Shown in pieces: positions 3,878 to 17,631 of a stretch of DNA of 27,206 nt. A model generated the notes under the pieces. The model was given only the letters and a program-made list of their open reading frames with translations, did no database searches and had not been told where the DNA came from. The DNA is taken from positions 1 through 27,206 of IMG/VR virus record IMGVR_UViG_3300043395_002342; one strand, 5' to 3'. The position numbers and the translations under genes are program-made. This DNA comes from a virus. The first letter of the stretch is position 1, and every line of letters starts with the position of its first letter.

Positions 3878-4435
3878 ATGAAAAAGTATTTTTACGTTTA
3901 TTATTCCTACGAAGAATTTGGTAGAGGATATATTGGAAAGAGGGAATCTGAATGTCCTCCAGAAGATGATATTAAATATCTTGGTAGTTCTAAAGATAAA
4001 ACTTTTAAACCAAATCAAAAAATTATTTTGGAAACATTTAATAATGTGGAAGAAGCACTTGAAGCGGAGTGTATTCTTCATAATTTTTATGAAGTAGATA
4101 AAAATCCACATTTTGCGAATAAAGCAAGACAAACTTCCACTAAGTTTTATTATTGTTCTTTCGGTGATAATAATCCATCAAAAAGAAAAGAAGTTAAGGA
4201 AAAAATAAAAAAAAGTAAGACTGGCAATAATAATCCGTCAAAAAGACCAGAAGTGAGGCAAAAATTAAAAGAAGCAAGAAATAAAAGGATAACAACAGAA
4301 GAAACAAAGAAAAAAATGAGTGAAGCACATAAAGGAAAACCTGGAACTTTTGGAATGAAAGGAAAAACTCATAGCGAAGAAACAAAACAAAAAATGAGAG
4401 ATGCGTGGAAAACTAAAAATAAATCTAGGGCTTGA
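3878..4435 (+). CDS. GIY-YIG homing endonuclease (Seg-like) with NUMOD3 repeats
   Basis: A 185-residue protein. The N-terminus carries the GIY-YIG nuclease signature: VYY (7-9) and GYIGKR (17-22), followed by E-rich LEAECILHNFY (61-71) that should include the catalytic Glu. Residues about 97-180 hold NUMOD3-type DNA-binding repeats (NNPSKR..V..K, twice; GMKGKTHSEETKQKMRDAW). This matches the T4 Seg family of free-standing homing enzymes. It lies between the gp59/DUF1825 genes and gp32, the same neighbourhood as T4 segG, whose product targets gene 32 of a relative. It has no clear Shine-Dalgarno; the structured leader with embedded late promoter precedes it. Its TGA overlaps the -35 box of the gp32 promoter. 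Strongly A-rich coding sequence compared with gp32. Confidence 0.88.
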   Translation: MKKYFYVYYSYEEFGRGYIGKRESECPPEDDIKYLGSSKDKTFKPNQKIILETFNNVEEALEAECILHNFYEVDKNPHFANKARQTSTKFYYCSFGDNNPSKRKEVKEKIKKSKTGNNNPSKRPEVRQKLKEARNKRITTEETKKKMSEAHKGKPGTFGMKGKTHSEETKQKMRDAWKTKNKSRA

Positions 4436-7606: not shown

Positions 7607-8002
7607 TTATTTATTTAGACGGAATTTTGCATATGGTATAGAAAGCATCTCATCTAATTCATTGTATTCAATAACGTGAAGTTTGCCCGCGACTTCTTCC
7701 CAAGTATAATTTCTCGATTGTCTCCAATGAAAGTTAATTGCTTTAAATCCCCAGTTATAAAGTTCAGTACAAGCAATTAAAGGATGTTGATCGTATTCAA
7801 TATCTGGCGTCTTAGGATTGTAAATGAATGTATAAAACTTTCCTGGTTCTGGATATAATACTTCTTTCTTTAGAGTGTCTAAGATTATTAGCATTAGATC
7901 TTCAGGATCTGATGTTCCTGAGGTATCAATTTTTTTGAGAAGATCTCTCATTCTTTGAGTAGTAGATATTTTCTCTACATACTTCCCAAAACCTTCTGCC
8001 AT
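7607..8002 (-). CDS. Conserved unknown, probable morphogenesis protein
   Basis: A 131-residue protein whose ATG (8002) overlaps the gp4 stop by one base (TAATG), so it is co-translated with gp4. I do not recognise a named T4 homologue. It has an N-terminal helical region (VEKISTTQRMRDLLKKID), then a compact aromatic-rich domain with GKFYTFIYNPKTPDIEYDQHPLIACTEL, followed by YNWGFKAINFHWRQSRNYTWEEVAG and a PYAKFRLNK end. The HPL.....YNWGFKAINFHW segment looks like a conserved core. No signal peptide or transmembrane helix. Position between gp4 and gp48 suggests a virion or assembly role. A weak late-promoter-like CATAAATG (7597-7590, minus) follows it, in front of gp48. Confidence 0.75.
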   Translation of the reverse strand: MAEGFGKYVEKISTTQRMRDLLKKIDTSGTSDPEDLMLIILDTLKKEVLYPEPGKFYTFIYNPKTPDIEYDQHPLIACTELYNWGFKAINFHWRQSRNYTWEEVAGKLHVIEYNELDEMLSIPYAKFRLNK

Positions 8003-8454
8003 TATTTGATACCTAGTTCTTGTTCGGTGATTACGCGGAATTTAATTAAACGATCTTCGCACCATTCTTGAATTGACCTCCACTTTGATTGATTGATGGC
8101 ATAAGTATTTACTTCATTGATATATGTTTTGGATTTCTTTTTCCCCTGAATTGGTGGAACTGTTTGGTTTTTTGGTTTTATTTCTATTACATATTTTTGT
8201 GTTTTGCCATTACTCTCAAGTACTTCAATAATAAAGTCCGGAAAGTATCTACATACTTTTTGTTTTACTGGATTATAATAAGGTATACAAAATTCTTCCG
8301 ATCCATATTTCAATATGTTAGGTGAACGATCGCACCATTGCATAAACTTAAGTTCCCAGCTACTTCTATAAACTATATTTTGTGGATTTCCAATATATTT
8401 TTCTGGATTTCTTGGATGAAAATATCCTTGATGGTATTTAGAATCACGCGGCAT
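8002..8454 (-). CDS. 4: Head completion protein gp4 (PD-(D/E)XK nuclease-like)
   Basis: A 150-residue protein, the same length as T4 gp4, which acts at the portal end of DNA-filled heads before tail joining. The core reads YRSSWELKFMQWCD (T4: a similar E..F..WCDE motif), YGSEEFCIPY, YFPDFIIEV, and YVIEIKPK; the PDF...EIKPK pair is a TnsA-like PD-(D/E)XK nuclease motif. I start at 8454 (MPRDSK...); the frame is open further upstream, but those residues overlap the endonuclease-like gene by 60 or more bases, and an AAAGG lies upstream of 8454. The first codons overlap the end of the NUMOD gene, whose last codons (Lys-Gly-Trp-Lys) supply the gp4 ribosome site. It overlaps the downstream 131-residue gene by one base. 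Confidence 0.82.
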   Translation of the reverse strand: MPRDSKYHQGYFHPRNPEKYIGNPQNIVYRSSWELKFMQWCDRSPNILKYGSEEFCIPYYNPVKQKVCRYFPDFIIEVLESNGKTQKYVIEIKPKNQTVPPIQGKKKSKTYINEVNTYAINQSKWRSIQEWCEDRLIKFRVITEQELGIK

Positions 8455-9013
8455 TTTTCCAACCTTTATGTGATTTATTTCTTCCATTAACAACATGCTG
8501 TAAGCACCCAATACTTAGATTATTTTCTTTTGCAAATTTAGTGAGGTTTTTAATTTCTACAATATTGCCTTCGGGAGAAAGTAATTTGTATTCTTTACTA
8601 TTTTTATCGGATAACGCTTTTTTTGTACTCTCTAAACAAGGTTTACCTTTATTTGGACTTTGATTATTTTTGAACCATTCTTTTCTTTTATTTCTTTGCT
8701 TTTGTTTTGTTTCTTCTGAGTGAGTTTTCCCCCACATTGGATTTAATTCACCGAACCTTTTACTGTTATACATTCCATTTTTTTCTCCATAATTTGCACG
8801 AGACATTCTAAACGAATCATTTTTACATAGTTCTAATGTGATATCCCTTAATTTTTCTTTAGTTTCTCTAGAATGTTTTTTACCGTAAAACGGATTGAAT
8901 TTTCCCTCATATCCGGAGTATCCTTCATATTCTTCATAGATTATTTCTGGTGGTAAATCAATGTTAAATACTTCGTTTAATTTTTTAGTATTAAATTTAA
9001 TAATCTTTTTCAT
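8444..9013 (-). CDS. Homing-endonuclease-like DNA-binding protein (NUMOD3 + NUMOD1), no nuclease domain seen
   Basis: A 189-residue protein. Three NUMOD3-type repeats are visible: FNPFYGKKHSRETKEKLRD (39-57), LNPMWGKTHSEETKQKQRN (90-108) and QSPNKGKPCLESTKKALSD (118-136). A C-terminal NUMOD1-like domain follows (about 142-186; YKLLSPEGNIVEI then LTKFAKENNL then HKGWK). These are DNA-recognition modules of GIY-YIG and HNH homing enzymes, but the first 35 residues contain no GIY-YIG or HNH motif. It may be a nuclease-less remnant, a DNA-binding partner, or carry an unrecognised catalytic part. It is inserted directly before gp4 and overlaps its start by 11 bases. The gene is AT-rich, and the leader has the same hairpin-plus-late-promoter layout as the two other endonuclease genes. 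Confidence 0.8.
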   Translation of the reverse strand: MKKIIKFNTKKLNEVFNIDLPPEIIYEEYEGYSGYEGKFNPFYGKKHSRETKEKLRDITLELCKNDSFRMSRANYGEKNGMYNSKRFGELNPMWGKTHSEETKQKQRNKRKEWFKNNQSPNKGKPCLESTKKALSDKNSKEYKLLSPEGNIVEIKNLTKFAKENNLSIGCLQHVVNGRNKSHKGWKNAA

Positions 9014-9976: not shown

Positions 9977-10696
9977 ATGCCTTTACCAAAGATCTCTACG
10001 CCAACGTATGAGTTGGAATTGCCATCAACCGGACAAACAGTTCAATATAGACCATTTCTTGTTAAAGAAGAGAAAGTATTAGTAATTGCTTTAGAAAGTG
10101 AAGATACTAAGCAAATTACTAATGCTATTAAGAATGTAATTAAAAATTGTATCCTTACTAAATCGATAAAAGTAGAAACATTACCTACCTTTGATATTGA
10201 ATATCTTTTCCTTAACATTCGCGGCAAGTCAGTTGGAGAGGAAATTGAGGTTAATATTATTTGTCCAGATGATGAAACTACAACAACTAAAGTTAATTTG
10301 AATCTTGATGATATTAAGGTTCAGAAGAATGAAGATCATACAAATAGGATCAAAGTTGACTCAAGTATTATGATGGAAATGAAGTATCCATCATTGGATC
10401 AGTTCATTAAAAATAACTTTGATTTTAATGATAGTAGTGCGATGGATCAATCCTTTGATCTGATTGCTTCTTGTATTGATAAGATTTATACGGAAGATGA
10501 AGTGTGGGCAGCTGCTGATGTCACTAAAAAAGAACTTGTCGAATTCTTGGAGCAGATGAATTCATCTCAGTTCAAGGAGATTGAAAAATTCTTTGAGACA
10601 ATGCCAAAACTTTCTCATAAAGTTTCTGTAGTTAATCCAAAAACTAAAGTTGAGAGTGAAGTTGTATTAGAAGGGTTAGCAAGTTTTTTCGCATAG
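9977..10696 (+). CDS. 26: Baseplate hub assembly protein gp26 (tail chaperone G-like, zero-frame product)
   Basis: A 239-residue protein (T4 gp26: 208) with the family N-terminus TYELELPSTGQTVQYRPFLVKEEKVLVIALESED. The middle carries LPTFDIEYLFLNIRGKSVGEEIEV and a Cys/Asp loop like a small beta domain (ICPDDE); the rest is helical with acidic patches. In T4 gp26 takes part in hub assembly. Here it stands immediately before the tape measure gene, where many long-tailed phages carry the G/GT chaperone pair. The last codons AGT TTT TTC GCA TAG contain a -1 slippery heptamer (10684-10690) with a downstream hairpin, so a fraction of ribosomes probably continue in the -1 frame into the 10708-10887 ORF, giving about 303 residues. 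A good ribosome site (TAGGA) precedes the ATG. Confidence 0.82.
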   Translation: MPLPKISTPTYELELPSTGQTVQYRPFLVKEEKVLVIALESEDTKQITNAIKNVIKNCILTKSIKVETLPTFDIEYLFLNIRGKSVGEEIEVNIICPDDETTTTKVNLNLDDIKVQKNEDHTNRIKVDSSIMMEMKYPSLDQFIKNNFDFNDSSAMDQSFDLIASCIDKIYTEDEVWAAADVTKKELVEFLEQMNSSQFKEIEKFFETMPKLSHKVSVVNPKTKVESEVVLEGLASFFA

Positions 10697-10717
10697 CCCT
10701 AGTCCATATGGACTTGG
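10684..10717 (+). promoter_or_regulatory. Programmed -1 ribosomal frameshift site (slippery T_TTT_TTC plus hairpin)
   Basis: In the gp26 frame the heptamer T_TTT_TTC (10684-10690) has the canonical X_XXY_YYZ form. After a 7-base spacer, CCTAGTCC (10698-10705) pairs with GGACTTGG (10710-10717) over an ATAT loop with one T-T mismatch. The zero frame stops at TAG 10694-10696. The -1 frame reads TTT TTT CGC ATA GCC CTA GTC CAT ATG and is open to 10887. Site, spacing and reading frame are all directly visible; efficiency is unknown. Confidence 0.75.
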
Positions 10718-10887
10718 AGAGTTATTTTAGACTCAATTTTGCCTTGATGCAGTATCATAAATATTCTTTGACAGAGATTGAAAATATGATGCCTTGGGAA
10801 CGAGACATTTATATTGCTTTATTACAACAGCATCTTGAAGAAGAAAAATTAAAACAACAGCAATCTAATGGCAATCAATTCTTCTAG
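10708..10887 (+). CDS. 51: gp51-like T extension of the tail chaperone, reached by -1 frameshift
   Basis: A 59-residue ORF (MDLESYFRLNF...) overlapping the next gene by 20 bases. Its ATG has no Shine-Dalgarno, but the frame is continuous with gp26 after a -1 slip at 10684-10690. The sequence LTEIENMMPWERDIYIALLQQHLEEEKLKQQQ has the look of the T segment of G/GT chaperones and of small gp51-like cyanophage proteins: a short helical domain with an MPW motif and a charged coiled tail. In the G/GT model the fused form binds the tape measure and recruits tube subunits. It could also be translated on its own at a low rate. The CATAAATA at 10756-10763 lies inside it. Confidence 0.72.
   Translation: MDLESYFRLNFALMQYHKYSLTEIENMMPWERDIYIALLQQHLEEEKLKQQQSNGNQFF
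10756..10763 (+). promoter_or_regulatory. T4-type late promoter CATAAATA inside the gp51-like ORF
   Basis: CATAAATA fits NATAAATA and would start RNA near 10769, about 100 bases before the large tape-measure-like gene. It overlaps coding sequence (codons Tyr-His-Lys-Tyr), so a chance match is possible. Confidence 0.35.
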
Positions 10888-13021
10888 TATTGTACCGATA
10901 ACAAAAAGGAAGAATGGTCGTGCCTTAGTCAATGAGAAGATTGATGAAAGGATATTAAGATTACTTGGGTTAGAAGATGTTTTTGATATTGATTATGATA
11001 CATATTCAACTCTTTTGAAGGAGGCGATGGTGAAGGGTAGGATGCCCAAGACATCAATACCTACAGAAGAAATTGAATTAGTTACCGGTGAGTGGAAAAG
11101 AGTAAAAGGTAAAAGTGGTAGGTTTAAAGTTAAAAAAATTACAGCAGCAAGTTTTAAGAAGGGAACTGCGGTTGGTGTTAATTTAGGAAAGAAAAAACTT
11201 CTTACTGGAATCAGACCTCTCGCTCTCCCTCCAGCCGTTGATAAAATGTCTGGAGGAGATGATCTTACTGAAATTAGAGATCTTCTTGGTAATATTATTA
11301 AAAATTTAACGCAACAAAATAAAGCACAGAAAGACGCTACCGAAAGATCTAGGAAAGAAGCAGAGAATGCTAAGAGAGCATTAGCAGAATCAAACTTAGA
11401 GAAGGGTTTTAAGTTTGCGATTAAGGCAGCAGAAAAAGTTATTGCTCCAGTTAAATCATTGCTATCAAGAATCATTGACTTCTTTATGGCAATTTTTTGG
11501 GGTAAAGTATTCCTCAAACTTTTAGATTGGTTTGCTGAGAAAGAAAACAAAAAGAAAATTGATTCTCTGTTTAGATTCTTTGGAGATCATTGGCCAAAAC
11601 TTTTAGCACTATACTTGAGGTTTGGCACTGGTCTTGGTAAGTTTGTTGGTGGATTTACGAAATTAGTTTTCTTCGGAACAAGGAAACTACTCCAAGTTGT
11701 TGCCAGTATGGTTGGCGCAAAGGGAGCAGCAAGATTTCTTGGTGGTCGTGGTGGAAGGTTTGTTGCTGCGGGTCTACAGGTAGCAACAACTGTTGGAACC
11801 ACTATGGCATTGAGTGGTGGTATTGAAAACTTTGTTGGTGGTGGTAAAGAGAAAGAAGATAATTTTAAGATCCCTACATTTTCTGGTGGAGGATTATCAA
11901 GTCTTAAAAAGTTATTTGGATTTTATGGTGGTGGTCCTGGTCGTGTAAGCGGACAGAAAGGTGTTGATAAGATACCTGCGATGTTAAGTGATGGTGAATT
12001 TGTTATGTCCCGTGGAGCAGTTCAAAAGTATGGAGTTGGCACACTGGAGTCTATGAATGCTGCTGGTGGAGGAACAAATAGACCAAAGATGATTAGTGGG
12101 ACTACTTATGCTGCTGGTGGTGGATTGATTGGATACGCCGGTGATATGATCAAACACCACGAAGCATTATCTTCATTACAACCCGGACAGAATTATTATG
12201 TTTCGGTAAAAAGTCCTGAGTATAGAAAGGTTTCTAATACAACTAAGATATATCCATATCTTGATAGTGTTAATGTTCCTACTATTGGATGGGGTGCGAC
12301 TTATTATGATAGTCTATTGAAAGGATCTAAAAAAGTTAAGATGAGTGATCCCCCTATTACAAAGGCAGCAGCAGATAATCTATTAACAAAACATCTTTCT
12401 CAACTTATTCCACTAGCAAAATCCAAACTTCCTTTGTGGAATAAGATGTCTCCTCAACAGCAGGGAACAGTTATTTCTTTCCTTTATAATGCTGGTCCAA
12501 ACTCTATTGATCCTAAAGGTCCATATCCAAAGTTTTCTAGAGCATTGATTGCTGGTAATATGATTGAGGCATCTAGAAATACTACTAGAGGTGGACCAGC
12601 ACCTTCAAGAATTAATGAAGAGAGAAAATTATTAAGCACCGGTCCCTCTGATCTAACTAAAGTAAAGCAACCTACATCAACAAGACCGAATAAAGAACCA
12701 AATATATTTGAAAGACTTTCTTCCGGGTTCTCTTCAATGATTGGAAAGTCTGGTTCTGTCATTGCTCCTCCAGCACAAGCAAAGGAACCTAGATATGCTA
12801 AGGGTGGAATGGTTCCTGCTAGATTATCAAAGGCACCCGCAAATATCAAAAACATTTCTCCGCCAGCAAAACCTTCTGTAGTTGTAAGAACTATGAGTAG
12901 TTCTAAACCAGAAAATATGAATATTCCTGGAGCACCTGGAGCACCAAGACTTCCTTCATTCAGCTCCGCTCGTATTGATAAAGAAAGAAGAAGAATTCTT
13001 GATATTCATAGTATCGGATAA
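10868..13021 (+). CDS. Tape-measure-like tail protein with GH24 lysozyme domain
   Basis: A 717-residue protein. Residues about 150-185 form a charged coiled coil (QQNKAQKDATERSRKEAENAKRA in part); about 200-320 hold hydrophobic helices and Gly-rich stretches usual in tape measures. Residues about 365-400 contain GVDKIPAMLSDGEFVMSRGAVQKYG, a motif common in tail tape measure and hub proteins. About 420-595 is a phage-lysozyme (GH24, T4-lysozyme family) domain: HHEAL with E432 as likely catalytic acid, YLDSVNVPTIGWGATYY (T472-I-G-W-G), ITKAAADNLL, SPQQQGTVISFLYNAG, and RINEERKLL. It follows the gp26/gp51-like chaperone, as tape measure genes do, so it may be the gp29 counterpart. No Shine-Dalgarno. 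The lysozyme could cut peptidoglycan during injection, replacing the one lost from gp5. Confidence 0.72.
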   Translation: MAINSSSIVPITKRKNGRALVNEKIDERILRLLGLEDVFDIDYDTYSTLLKEAMVKGRMPKTSIPTEEIELVTGEWKRVKGKSGRFKVKKITAASFKKGTAVGVNLGKKKLLTGIRPLALPPAVDKMSGGDDLTEIRDLLGNIIKNLTQQNKAQKDATERSRKEAENAKRALAESNLEKGFKFAIKAAEKVIAPVKSLLSRIIDFFMAIFWGKVFLKLLDWFAEKENKKKIDSLFRFFGDHWPKLLALYLRFGTGLGKFVGGFTKLVFFGTRKLLQVVASMVGAKGAARFLGGRGGRFVAAGLQVATTVGTTMALSGGIENFVGGGKEKEDNFKIPTFSGGGLSSLKKLFGFYGGGPGRVSGQKGVDKIPAMLSDGEFVMSRGAVQKYGVGTLESMNAAGGGTNRPKMISGTTYAAGGGLIGYAGDMIKHHEALSSLQPGQNYYVSVKSPEYRKVSNTTKIYPYLDSVNVPTIGWGATYYDSLLKGSKKVKMSDPPITKAAADNLLTKHLSQLIPLAKSKLPLWNKMSPQQQGTVISFLYNAGPNSIDPKGPYPKFSRALIAGNMIEASRNTTRGGPAPSRINEERKLLSTGPSDLTKVKQPTSTRPNKEPNIFERLSSGFSSMIGKSGSVIAPPAQAKEPRYAKGGMVPARLSKAPANIKNISPPAKPSVVVRTMSSSKPENMNIPGAPGAPRLPSFSSARIDKERRRILDIHSIG

Positions 13022-13030
13022 TAAAAAGAT

Positions 13031-15982
13031 ATGGCACCTAAAGCACTTCCTTCAGCAAAAATTAGTCCAACAAAACTCTTAGGGGGAAGTTCCTTAGCGA
13101 CTACCGTTAAGAAGATAAGTGTTAAGTCAACCGCTGTAGGAGATCGCTATCTTGAACTTGGTGTTATTAAAAAACAAGTCATAAAAATTAATGATTTAGT
13201 AAAGACAAATACTTTACTTAAGGCAAAAGAAGAAAATAGAAAAAGAAAACTTGCTGAACAGAGGAGGTTTGCTGAGAAAGAAAAGAAACTTGAAGAACCA
13301 AAGGGAAAAGAAAATAAACTGCCATCTTTACCATCACTACCAAAGTTGGGGTTCCTTGATAGAATTAAAAGTTTTCTGTTTAATATTTTTCTTGGTTATA
13401 TTTCTCTTCGTTTACTTCCATATCTACCAAAACTTGCTGGTGTTGTTGGGACGATTGTAAAAGTTCAAGATGTTATTATTGATATTTCTGGAAAGATATT
13501 AAATGGTCTAGTTTCTTTCGTTGATAAGGCATATGAAGTTCACGATAAAACTAGGAAGTTCTTAGGAGATCTTGGTGGCGAAAGTTTCACCAAGACATTT
13601 GATGGATTTATTGGTGCGATGGATAAAGTTATTTTAGCATCTATTGCCGCTGCTATTGCTTTTGGAGAACTTCGTGATACTGGTGGTCCTAGTCCTGATG
13701 GTTTTGGTGGAGGAAGAAGAGGTCAAATAAGAGGTGATATTACTGACCAGGGATTTTTTAATAAAAAAACTGGACGTTGGCAGGGAAGTTTTAGTGGAAA
13801 AAATGGTGTCTATAGAACTGAGGAAGCGGCAAGAAGATACGCACGAAGATTTGGAAGAGATGCTGCTGTTCGTAGATTTGGTGAAAAGGGAGTTGGATAT
13901 CTTGGTGGCAAGTATGCTAGATCTCAGGCAACAAATCTTGCAAGGAGGGGTATTATTGGTCTTGCTGGTAAAGGTGGAACAAAATTAATCCTTGGAACAG
14001 TGAGACCTCTGCTTAAAAGACTTCCAATTATTGGAGCATTACTTGATTTTGGTTTATCTGTAGCTCTTGGAGAGGATCCCGGAAGAGCGGCATTTAAATC
14101 AATTGGTGCGGGACTTTTGGGTTCTGTTGGCGCTGCTGTTGGTTCTCTTGCTTTTGGTTTTGGTGGAATTGTTGGTGGTATTCTTGGAAGCATTGGTGGA
14201 GATGCTATTGGTGGAGCTTTATATGATATGTTTTTTGGCAATAAAAATCCAACATCAAAACAAAAAGTTCAAGGTCGTGCTCAAGGTGGTCCAATAACAA
14301 GGGGTGGTCAATTACCATCATCAATAAAAAGAACAGTACAAAAACCAAAAATTACTAGAAGTCTAAAGGTACAAACTACTGAAGTAAAACCCGGACAATC
14401 CGTTGGTGGTGAAGATAAAATTGAAAAAGTATTCCCTGAGACAGAAACAAGAAATTCTGATACTGTAAATCCACTCGGTTATATGAAGAGTTCTTATAAA
14501 ACTGCTTCATCTACTCTTGGGTTTGGTGGAATAGCAGCAATCTTTATGAAAGCTCAACTTGGAGAACAACCATCCAATGTTGATTATCAAAATGCTGCTG
14601 ATGGATTAACTGCTTGGATGCAGAGAACTCTTGGTGGAGGAATTCAAAGAACTAGTGCCTTTGCTGGCGGTGGAGAGGTTGATGCTGGAATGTTTGGTAA
14701 TGGTGATGATATGAAAAATATAATTGCCAAATCACTTCAAGATAGTGTTGCTCCAAAAATTGAAGATATGATTAATGATTTGAAAAAACAGATTGAATTA
14801 AAACCTAGGGAAGTTAAGAAAGAAAAGGAAGTTAATGAACCTTCTCCAGGGGAAGAATTGGGTAATGCTACAGAAATGATTGGTGGGGCTAGATTGTTTA
14901 TGGATCTTGGATTTCCACCTCTAGCTGCTGCTATACTTGCTGGTAATGTTCAAGCAGAGTCTGGATGGAAGGGACAAAGAACTCCTTGGGTTCTTAATGA
15001 CGGTGCTGGAACTAATAAAGGATTGATAAGTTGGAATCAGAGTAGAATTACTAATGCCGAAAAATTCTTAGGAAAACCTCTTGAAACTGCTACTAATGCT
15101 GAGCAAGTGAAATGGATTAAAGAGGAATTGAAGCAATATGGACTTCTTGATGAGTTTATGGATCCGAATAGAACTGAGGCGCAGTTAAAATCGGATTCTT
15201 ACAAATATATTGGATGGGGAATAGAAGGAGACAGATGGAAATATTCATCCCGAATTTACTCCGCTCTCCAGAGAGGTGAGAGGGGAAGTTATGTTCCATC
15301 TACAACAGCAACTTTAGGCACTGGTAGTGGAAATCTTTCCGCAGCAAAAAGTTTAGCCAAAGATATGGGACTTAGCTTAACAAGTTCAACACATTGGAGT
15401 GATGGTAGAAGAAGATCTGGATTGCATGGTGCCGGAAGAGCACTTGATTTTTCAAATGATTCTGTTGGAAGAGGAACACCGGAGCAAATGACATATGCTA
15501 AAGAAATGATAAAAAGATATGGTAGTAGTTTGGAACAATTAATTTATACTCCGCTTGGATATGGTATTGCTAAAGGTCAAGTTGTCAATTTAGATCATTG
15601 GGGGGATAAAGTAAACGCACAACATTATAATCACGTCCATGTTGCTTTCAACAAAGGTGGTAAAGTTAAAGGAAAGAGAGGTATCGATCAAATACGTGCG
15701 ATGCTAACTCACGGAGAATTTGTTCTTGATGTTGACTCAACCACAGCATTGGAGAAAAACTTCCCAGGATTTTTAGATGCTCTTAATAAAGCAAACTATG
15801 ATGGTGCGATCAATGTTTTAAGATCCTATGCTCAATACGAACAGGGATCTACTATACACGCAGTAGTCGATGAAAAACTAATACCAGTTCCAATCCCAAT
15901 TTCTTCTCCACAACAATCTCCAGTTGTTATTTCTTCTGGATTTGGTGGTGAAGATAGTATGTCTTCCAATTATATGAGGTAA
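13031..15982 (+). CDS. Second tape-measure-like tail protein with tail-lysozyme and M15-peptidase-like domains
   Basis: A 983-residue protein. A basic coiled region (about 55-100) is followed by hydrophobic helices at about 107-143, 197-214 and 327-404 (Gly/Ala-rich, possible membrane-insertion segments). Residues about 611-755 resemble the phage tail lysozyme domain (AAAILAGNVQAESGWKG with Glu in QAESG, GLISWNQSR). Residues about 765-880 resemble a zinc M15/VanY-type peptidase: LHGAGRALDF gives H799 and D806, and HYNHVHVAF gives H868 and H870. After it comes GIDQIRAMLTHGEFVLDVDS, the same motif as in the preceding gene. Two wall-cutting domains in one tail protein would help the tube pass the cell wall. 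The hydrophobic segment LDRIKSFLFNIFLGY..LRLL also resembles the neighbour (LLSRIIDFFMAIFWGKVFLKLL), so the two may be paralogues. Confidence 0.7.
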   Translation: MAPKALPSAKISPTKLLGGSSLATTVKKISVKSTAVGDRYLELGVIKKQVIKINDLVKTNTLLKAKEENRKRKLAEQRRFAEKEKKLEEPKGKENKLPSLPSLPKLGFLDRIKSFLFNIFLGYISLRLLPYLPKLAGVVGTIVKVQDVIIDISGKILNGLVSFVDKAYEVHDKTRKFLGDLGGESFTKTFDGFIGAMDKVILASIAAAIAFGELRDTGGPSPDGFGGGRRGQIRGDITDQGFFNKKTGRWQGSFSGKNGVYRTEEAARRYARRFGRDAAVRRFGEKGVGYLGGKYARSQATNLARRGIIGLAGKGGTKLILGTVRPLLKRLPIIGALLDFGLSVALGEDPGRAAFKSIGAGLLGSVGAAVGSLAFGFGGIVGGILGSIGGDAIGGALYDMFFGNKNPTSKQKVQGRAQGGPITRGGQLPSSIKRTVQKPKITRSLKVQTTEVKPGQSVGGEDKIEKVFPETETRNSDTVNPLGYMKSSYKTASSTLGFGGIAAIFMKAQLGEQPSNVDYQNAADGLTAWMQRTLGGGIQRTSAFAGGGEVDAGMFGNGDDMKNIIAKSLQDSVAPKIEDMINDLKKQIELKPREVKKEKEVNEPSPGEELGNATEMIGGARLFMDLGFPPLAAAILAGNVQAESGWKGQRTPWVLNDGAGTNKGLISWNQSRITNAEKFLGKPLETATNAEQVKWIKEELKQYGLLDEFMDPNRTEAQLKSDSYKYIGWGIEGDRWKYSSRIYSALQRGERGSYVPSTTATLGTGSGNLSAAKSLAKDMGLSLTSSTHWSDGRRRSGLHGAGRALDFSNDSVGRGTPEQMTYAKEMIKRYGSSLEQLIYTPLGYGIAKGQVVNLDHWGDKVNAQHYNHVHVAFNKGGKVKGKRGIDQIRAMLTHGEFVLDVDSTTALEKNFPGFLDALNKANYDGAINVLRSYAQYEQGSTIHAVVDEKLIPVPIPISSPQQSPVVISSGFGGEDSMSSNYMR

Positions 15983-17418: not shown

Positions 17419-17631
17419 ATGGAAAGCGTAGAAAAGCACATTGAGCACGATAAAAAGATTCTTGATGATCCTATGATTTCTGCTCAATCAAGAAGACACA
17501 CTGAAGAAGAACTACAAGCACTTGAGAGATGGGCTGATACTCATCCAGAAGATCACCACGATCCATCTTCTCTTGAACTTTATTGTAATGATAATCCCGA
17601 TGCTTTAGAATGTAGGGTTTATGAGGACTGA
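17419..17631 (+). CDS. CP12-like Calvin cycle inhibitor
   Basis: A 70-residue protein whose C-terminus, SLELYCNDNPDALECRVYED, carries the CP12 signature: a CX8C pair (C56, C65), D-N-P and the C-R-x-Y-E-D end that inserts into GAPDH. In cyanobacteria CP12 ties GAPDH and phosphoribulokinase into an inactive complex; cyanophages carry CP12 genes and are thought to shift carbon toward the pentose phosphate pathway. The N-terminal half lacks the first Cys pair and the AWD.VEEL core, having instead ISAQSRRHTEEELQALERW, so it may act mainly on GAPDH. It is in the middle of the baseplate operon, overlapping the gp5 start by one base (TGATG). No Shine-Dalgarno. An unrelated structural protein with a chance CP12 tail is unlikely but not excluded. 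Confidence 0.75.
   Translation: MESVEKHIEHDKKILDDPMISAQSRRHTEEELQALERWADTHPEDHHDPSSLELYCNDNPDALECRVYED

Follow-up and report, generated by a model that had tools for sequence, protein, structure and literature searches.

Gene 26 of a cyanophage-like virus contig and the gp51-like segment downstream of it very probably constitute a single tail assembly chaperone gene of the TAC-N/TAC-NC (G/GT) type, its two parts joined by a programmed −1 frameshift. The junction carries a slippery heptamer and an open −1 frame under coding constraint, and the two parts are homologous to T4 gp26 and gp51. A fusion of this kind had been proposed in a preliminary description of this DNA. It can now be considered very probable because the heptamer is invariant (80 of 80 related junctions), the pattern of variation switches reading frame at this point, and some distant relatives have no usable start codon for the downstream part.

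The gene 26 junction

The window, meaning the whole 27.2-kb stretch analyzed (27,206 nt), is an uncultivated virus contig, a fragment whose best-matching isolate genomes are those of Kyanoviridae cyanophages and their relatives, among them SynMITS9220M01 (84.5% protein identity) and S-SM2. Features of the junction are collected in Table 1.

Table 1. Features at and around the gene 26 junction (coordinates in the window).
Feature	Position	Strand	Evidence or remarks
Gene 26, short form (TAC-N, G-like), 239 aa, T4_baseplate family	9977..10696	+	Pfam PF12322, E = 1.4e-76; phrog_150, E = 2.5e-81
Putative slippery heptamer T_TTT_TTC, in the gene 26 frame	10684..10690	+	Invariant in 80/80 related junctions; also in Aeromonas, Vibrio, Stenotrophomonas, Acidovorax, and Desulfovibrio phages
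Gene 26 stop codon TAG, predicted to be bypassed by shifted ribosomes	10694..10696	+	
−1 frame extension (T-like domain), 65 codons plus stop	10690..10887	+	phrog_634, E = 3.8e-29; C-terminal end of phrog_150; −1 coding constraint from the heptamer on
Possible stimulatory hairpin, 7 nt after the heptamer	10698..10717	+	Predicted in the window; full 5-bp core in roughly half of 65 relatives
ATG usually taken as a separate gp51 start; most likely an internal Met codon	10708..10710	+	ATA in L022, other codons in distant relatives; no Shine-Dalgarno
Following gene, for a long, tape-measure-like structural protein that has a lysozyme domain	10868..13021	+	Weak PHROG tape-measure matches; Phage_lysozyme

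The PF12322 profile scores 257.5 bits against the window gp26, with a curated cut-off of 24.5. The gene ends GCA AGT TTT TTC GCA TAG, which gives the heptamer the phase that a tandem −1 slip requires; its position in the last codons and its phase had both been given correctly in the preliminary description, as had the other coordinates. As also described there, the −1 frame continues past the gene 26 stop: its translation reads FF|RIALVHMDLESYF...NQFF*, with the 65 codons counted from 10690 and the stop at 10885-10887. The predicted fusion has 238 + 65 = 303 residues, the length anticipated, and the residues spanning its junction would be ...ASFFRIALVHMDLESYFR. For S-SM2, the predicted tryptic junction peptides are ...GFFR followed by IALIHMDLENYYR, the second of which begins before the ATG. 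In other records, the −1 extension is annotated as gp51, baseplate hub assembly catalyst.

An argument from rarity was considered and dropped: TTTTTTC is not rare in the window (15 found, vs. about 23 expected). The case rests on where the heptamer lies, its phase, and its conservation.

A tail-tube-like gene lies upstream of gene 26, and the gene directly after the −1 frame is long, with weak PHROG tape-measure matches and a lysozyme domain; its first 20 nt are shared with the end of the −1 frame. It is the first of two successive long tape-measure-like proteins (10868-13021 and 13031-15982) with different lysozyme-type domains (Phage_lysozyme, and Phage_lysozyme2 just below cut-off). Elsewhere in the window, an ORF on the minus strand (8444-9013) has a NUMOD3 motif (homing-endonuclease-like) and no recognized nuclease domain, and overlaps the start of a gp4-like TnsA-fold gene (8002-8511). 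A gene for CP12, a Calvin-cycle inhibitor and known cyanophage metabolic gene, lies within the baseplate gene cluster (17419-17631), directly 5′ of a gp5-like gene.

Conservation among close relatives

Eighty gp26-relative loci were taken from IMG/VR, of which three end before the junction; the remaining 77, with the isolate phages P-SSM2 and S-SM2 and the window itself, gave 80 junctions, reduced to 65 by dereplication at 85% nucleotide identity. An alignment of this kind had been suggested as a check. TTTTTTC is found at the same place in all 80 junctions, and codon usage there is unusually fixed: 59 full-length gene 26 sequences have 83 strongly conserved columns other than Met and Trp, and in just three of these do all sequences have the identical codon, the two Phe codons of the heptamer being among the three (elsewhere in gene 26, 73% of Phe codons are TTT). 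The Ser codon just before it may be TCT (32) or AGT (29), its final base always T.

Variation by codon position points the same way. In pairwise comparisons of the 65 junctions, differences at the first, second, and third positions are 0.31/0.10/0.57 upstream of the heptamer, read in frame 0; 0.35/0.21/0.51 between the gene 26 stop and the ATG at 10708, read in frame −1; and 0.21/0.14/0.44 after this ATG, also in frame −1. Because the pattern before the ATG fits frame −1, these bases evidently evolve as −1-frame codons. The codon just before the Met specifies His in 62 of 65 junctions, through both CAT and CAC. A gene beginning at the ATG would not be expected to place such protein-like constraint on the bases before it. 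In all the IMG/VR loci that hold the −1 frame, it runs for 57-64 codons without a stop. In one of these loci (L022) ATA replaces the ATG, leaving no start codon from the heptamer to codon 10 of the −1 frame. An unconserved heptamer beside a downstream ORF with its own start had been named as evidence that would count against the frameshift; what was found is an invariant heptamer, with some copies having no start codon.

Distant relatives

Further junctions were read from isolate and complete virus genomes. T_TTT_TTC is present in Aeromonas phages phiAS5 and AS-yj, Vibrio phages CZ01 and D484, Stenotrophomonas phage Mendera, Acidovorax phage ACP17, Desulfovibrio phage 7757, P-SSM4, and S-PM2; T_TTT_TTT in Ochrobactrum phage OC, Methylophilales phage Melnitz-3, and Agrobacterium phage Atu_ph04; and T_TTT_TTG in Rhizobium phage RL2RES. 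In OLIVR5 the heptamer lies two codons earlier. The conserved domain is present in the −1 frame of all these distant phages with the heptamer, although some of their GenBank annotations omit the −1 segment or start it late. The whole −1 frame of Desulfovibrio phage 7757 has no ATG, GTG, or TTG anywhere, and in AS-yj, phiAS5, Melnitz-3, and ACP17 none of these codons precedes the conserved domain. With no usable start in these five phages, a frameshift is the only ordinary way for them to express the domain.

The canonical T_TTT_TTN heptamer is absent from four Ackermannviridae-type junctions (L091 4221, L118 2170, L116 2221, and L110 2239; K474, D532, VP-1, and Det7). In K474, D532, and VP-1 the stop overlaps an ATG in the −1 frame (TAATG); Det7 has neither heptamer nor overlap of this kind. 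Stop-start coupling may have taken the place of the shift in these lineages, or they may slip at another site.

A predicted hairpin downstream of the heptamer

The stem noted in the preliminary description (10698-10705 with 10710-10717) is predicted to have an AUAU loop and one U·U mismatch. The 45 nt from 10691 to 10735 fold with z = −3.0, but the 107 nt from 10684 to 10790 with only z = −1.0. All five inner pairs are present in about half of the 65 relatives, the rest being without the full stem or having it in another register. This 5-bp core covaries more than controls made by shuffling or sliding (84% of cells are paired, with 35 double changes vs. 14 expected), part of the pairing stemming from CAYATG codons. 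RNAalifold found no consensus structure for the 65 junctions, and a strictly conserved pseudoknot or stem was rejected on this ground; a covarying 5-bp hairpin in part of the family stays. The stem thus stands as a prediction for the window with a covarying core, but not as a feature of the whole family, and it is best seen as an optional booster, not a conserved element of the putative site.

The two-gene arrangement of T4

Phage T4 has two PF12322 proteins, gp26 (208 aa, E = 9e-64) and gp51 (249 aa, E = 4e-52), encoded on opposite strands. T4 gp51 spans the whole of phrog_150 and in addition matches phrog_634 (E = 1.2e-23), the family of the −1 extension, so that this C-terminal domain is common to T4 gp51 and the window extension. 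T4 gp51 is thus a gp26-like domain and the extension in one frame, a natural hard-wired fusion and a paralog of T4 gp26. The 3′ end of T4 gene 26 (GAG TTC TTT GAG) has no heptamer, nor do any of the eight T4-type gene 26 ends read, T4 included. T4 itself uses no frameshift, having two paralogous genes instead. The proposed correspondence of 26 and 51 with the G/GT pair is strongly supported, both T4 proteins belonging to PF12322 and gp51 combining the two parts, with the correction that T4 makes them from two genes, with no shift.

Complete records searched with PF12322 gave two genes for T4, RB43, and T4-type genomes. A single PF12322 gene was found in 23 genomes or records, with a −1 extension wherever the junction was read. 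A third match in one genome (G006) comes from a broken gp51 frame. The window contig has one gp26 relative, and the PF12322 gene is likewise single in complete relatives such as S-SM2; judged by gene content, the window does not have the T4-type split arrangement of two genes, one of them the long fusion. The simplest history would be that an ancestral frameshifted gene was duplicated and the short and long copies then fixed, a direction that we infer.

Several details of the T4-type loci may be recorded here. In RB43 (L115 2501-3794) the two PF12322 genes adjoin on the same strand, the long fused form first and the short one second, unlike the opposite strands of T4. In another T4-type locus (L102 4001-4746) the gp51 gene is split into two frames, with an in-frame TAG near 4360; this may be a real inactivation, recoding, or a sequencing error. 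T4 gp26 also weakly matches the gp28 profile (phrog_1140, E = 9e-4; T4 gp28 is L084 7849-8382), hinting that gp28 may be a third relative in the T4 hub.

Other routes to expression of the downstream segment

Shine-Dalgarno pairing is absent before the ATG at 10708 (−0.3 kcal/mol), as had been claimed for this ORF, but the accepted next gene at 10868 has none either (+1.1 kcal/mol), and several other window genes are alike in this. The missing ribosome site is therefore not diagnostic, and was dropped as an argument for frameshifting.

One possibility is that both routes operate, with a frameshifted long form and a re-initiated free T-like domain, for three products in all. The ATG is nearly invariant within the window's cyanophage subgroup, and the stop shares bases with an ATG (TAATG or TGATG) in Vibrio phages CZ01 and D484, Mendera, and others, an arrangement suited to this reading; against it, other lineages have Asn, Glu, Ala, or Asp instead of this Met, and the window ATG has no Shine-Dalgarno. 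We consider it unlikely. A specific version, in which terminating ribosomes would re-start at the ATG inside the hairpin to make the free domain, the hairpin both aiding the shift and masking the start, seems at best a slim possibility.

As a second possibility, gp51 might be a separate small protein only, initiated at the ATG at 10708 (or, in relatives, an ATG nearer the stop) on its own or by coupling to the stop. It is annotated this way throughout GenBank cyanophage records, and nearly all cyanophage copies have a suitable codon: of 65 relatives, 60 have an ATG at +14 past the stop and 38 have one at +5; weak or absent Shine-Dalgarno sequences are, moreover, common in the window. A separate gene would, however, leave unexplained the invariant heptamer, the protein-like constraint before the ATG, the copies without any start codon, and the natural fusion in T4 gp51, and is very unlikely.

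As a third, the fused message might be made by transcriptional rather than ribosomal slippage, on the conserved run of six Ts. A run of six is short for polymerase slippage, and the exact codon phase of T_TTT_TTC, together with its invariant C, marks it as a ribosomal heptamer, making this reading highly improbable. A sequencing or assembly error splitting one gene is already refuted by the relatives, with the same frame arrangement across 80 independent contigs and in isolate genomes of several families. A programmed ribosomal −1 frameshift remains the preferred reading.

Proposed mechanism and protein function

Under the frameshift reading, most ribosomes would stop at 10694-10696 and release the 239-residue short form. 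A minority would slip back one base on U_UUU_UUC, tRNA-Phe in the P and A sites re-pairing on UUU UUU, and read CGC AUA GCC ... to 10887, yielding the 303-residue long form with its extra, helical C-terminal domain. If the pair works as lambda G/GT does, the short form might coat the tape-measure protein, and the tail-tube protein might be recruited by the long form through its C-terminal domain. The efficiency of the shift, the short:long stoichiometry, and these binding roles are what we infer here.

AlphaFold2 models of the window gp26 (pLDDT 85.5, pTM 0.80) and of a T4-type gp51 (pLDDT 82.9, pTM 0.77) were both of fair confidence; the latter is predicted to have three C-terminal helices after residue 205. 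In a Foldseek search of the PDB with the gp26 model, the HK97 tail assembly chaperone (2OB9) ranked third (prob 0.77; rmsd 3.2 Å over 60 columns) and fourth (prob 0.69) and YqbN (3KLU) seventh, with E-values that were not significant (0.97 and above, about 1-2 for 2OB9 and YqbN). The likeness of the modeled fold to the HK97 chaperone, the best plausible match, is a supporting hint. Foldseek with the gp51 model gave nothing convincing in the PDB, and no related protein came up when PDB sequences were searched with the PF12322 alignment or T4 gp51.

Comparison with known systems

The closest parallel is in the T4-like phages themselves. Their tail assembly chaperones (gp26/gp51) were identified by Vladimirov, Gautam and Davidson (2022, Virology 566:9-15), according to papers citing that work (PMC10885494, PMC12846349), which also credit it with the split short and long genes of some T4-like phages (PMC10885494) and with poly-T slippery sequences in their TAC-N genes (PMC12846349). 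The TAC-N/TAC-NC proteins share the PF12322 family and the short/long logic with the window pair, and by the same citing papers the poly-T −1 slippery sites as well; the difference is that T4 has two paralogous genes for the two forms, while the window has one gene and a frameshift. In the literature searched, where Vladimirov et al. (2022) was represented by its citing papers, no description of the cyanophage site itself was found.

In lambda, gpG and gpGT are likewise a short and a frameshift-extended long chaperone encoded directly before the tape-measure gene, and the tape-measure and tube binding roles of G/GT come from this phage; a 2016 review of the subject calls the G-T frameshift widely conserved “except T4” (PMC5009743). 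The lambda pair has no detectable sequence relation to that of the window. The lambda slippery site is G_GGA_AAG, the window's T_TTT_TTC. In the Pakpunavirus and Vandenendeviridae frameshift, likewise, a myovirus TAC-N carries a poly-T motif, GTTTTT, and the −1 frame is open ahead of the tape measure (PMC12846349); these are different virus families with a different motif, and the likeness is one of gene layout.

T4 gp26 and gp51 have been classed as chaperones of hub assembly, with gp51 needed for assembly and absent from the particle (PMC3004832). In T4 gp51, the “baseplate hub assembly catalyst,” the last 48 or so residues are homologous to the −1 extension, but the 249-aa protein has its own gp26-like N-terminal domain, which the cyanophage “gp51” does not. 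The absence of the first 200 or so residues from cyanophage gp51 was noted in 2010 (PMC3037559), and is the look of a frameshifted C-terminal half. Cyanophage “gp51” is thus very probably no truncated gp51 gene (compare PMC3037559) but the latter half of a gene expressed by frameshifting.

Implications

Frameshifting was already known as the way tailed viruses make their chaperone pair, and the idea has been published for T4-like phages; new here are the breadth, the quantification, and the corrected annotation. The “gp51, baseplate hub assembly catalyst” of hundreds of cyanophage records is very probably no free-standing gene. The T4 hub genes 26 and 51, in turn, would be a duplicated, hard-wired version of a frameshift that marine, vibrio, aeromonas, and rhizobial relatives have kept.
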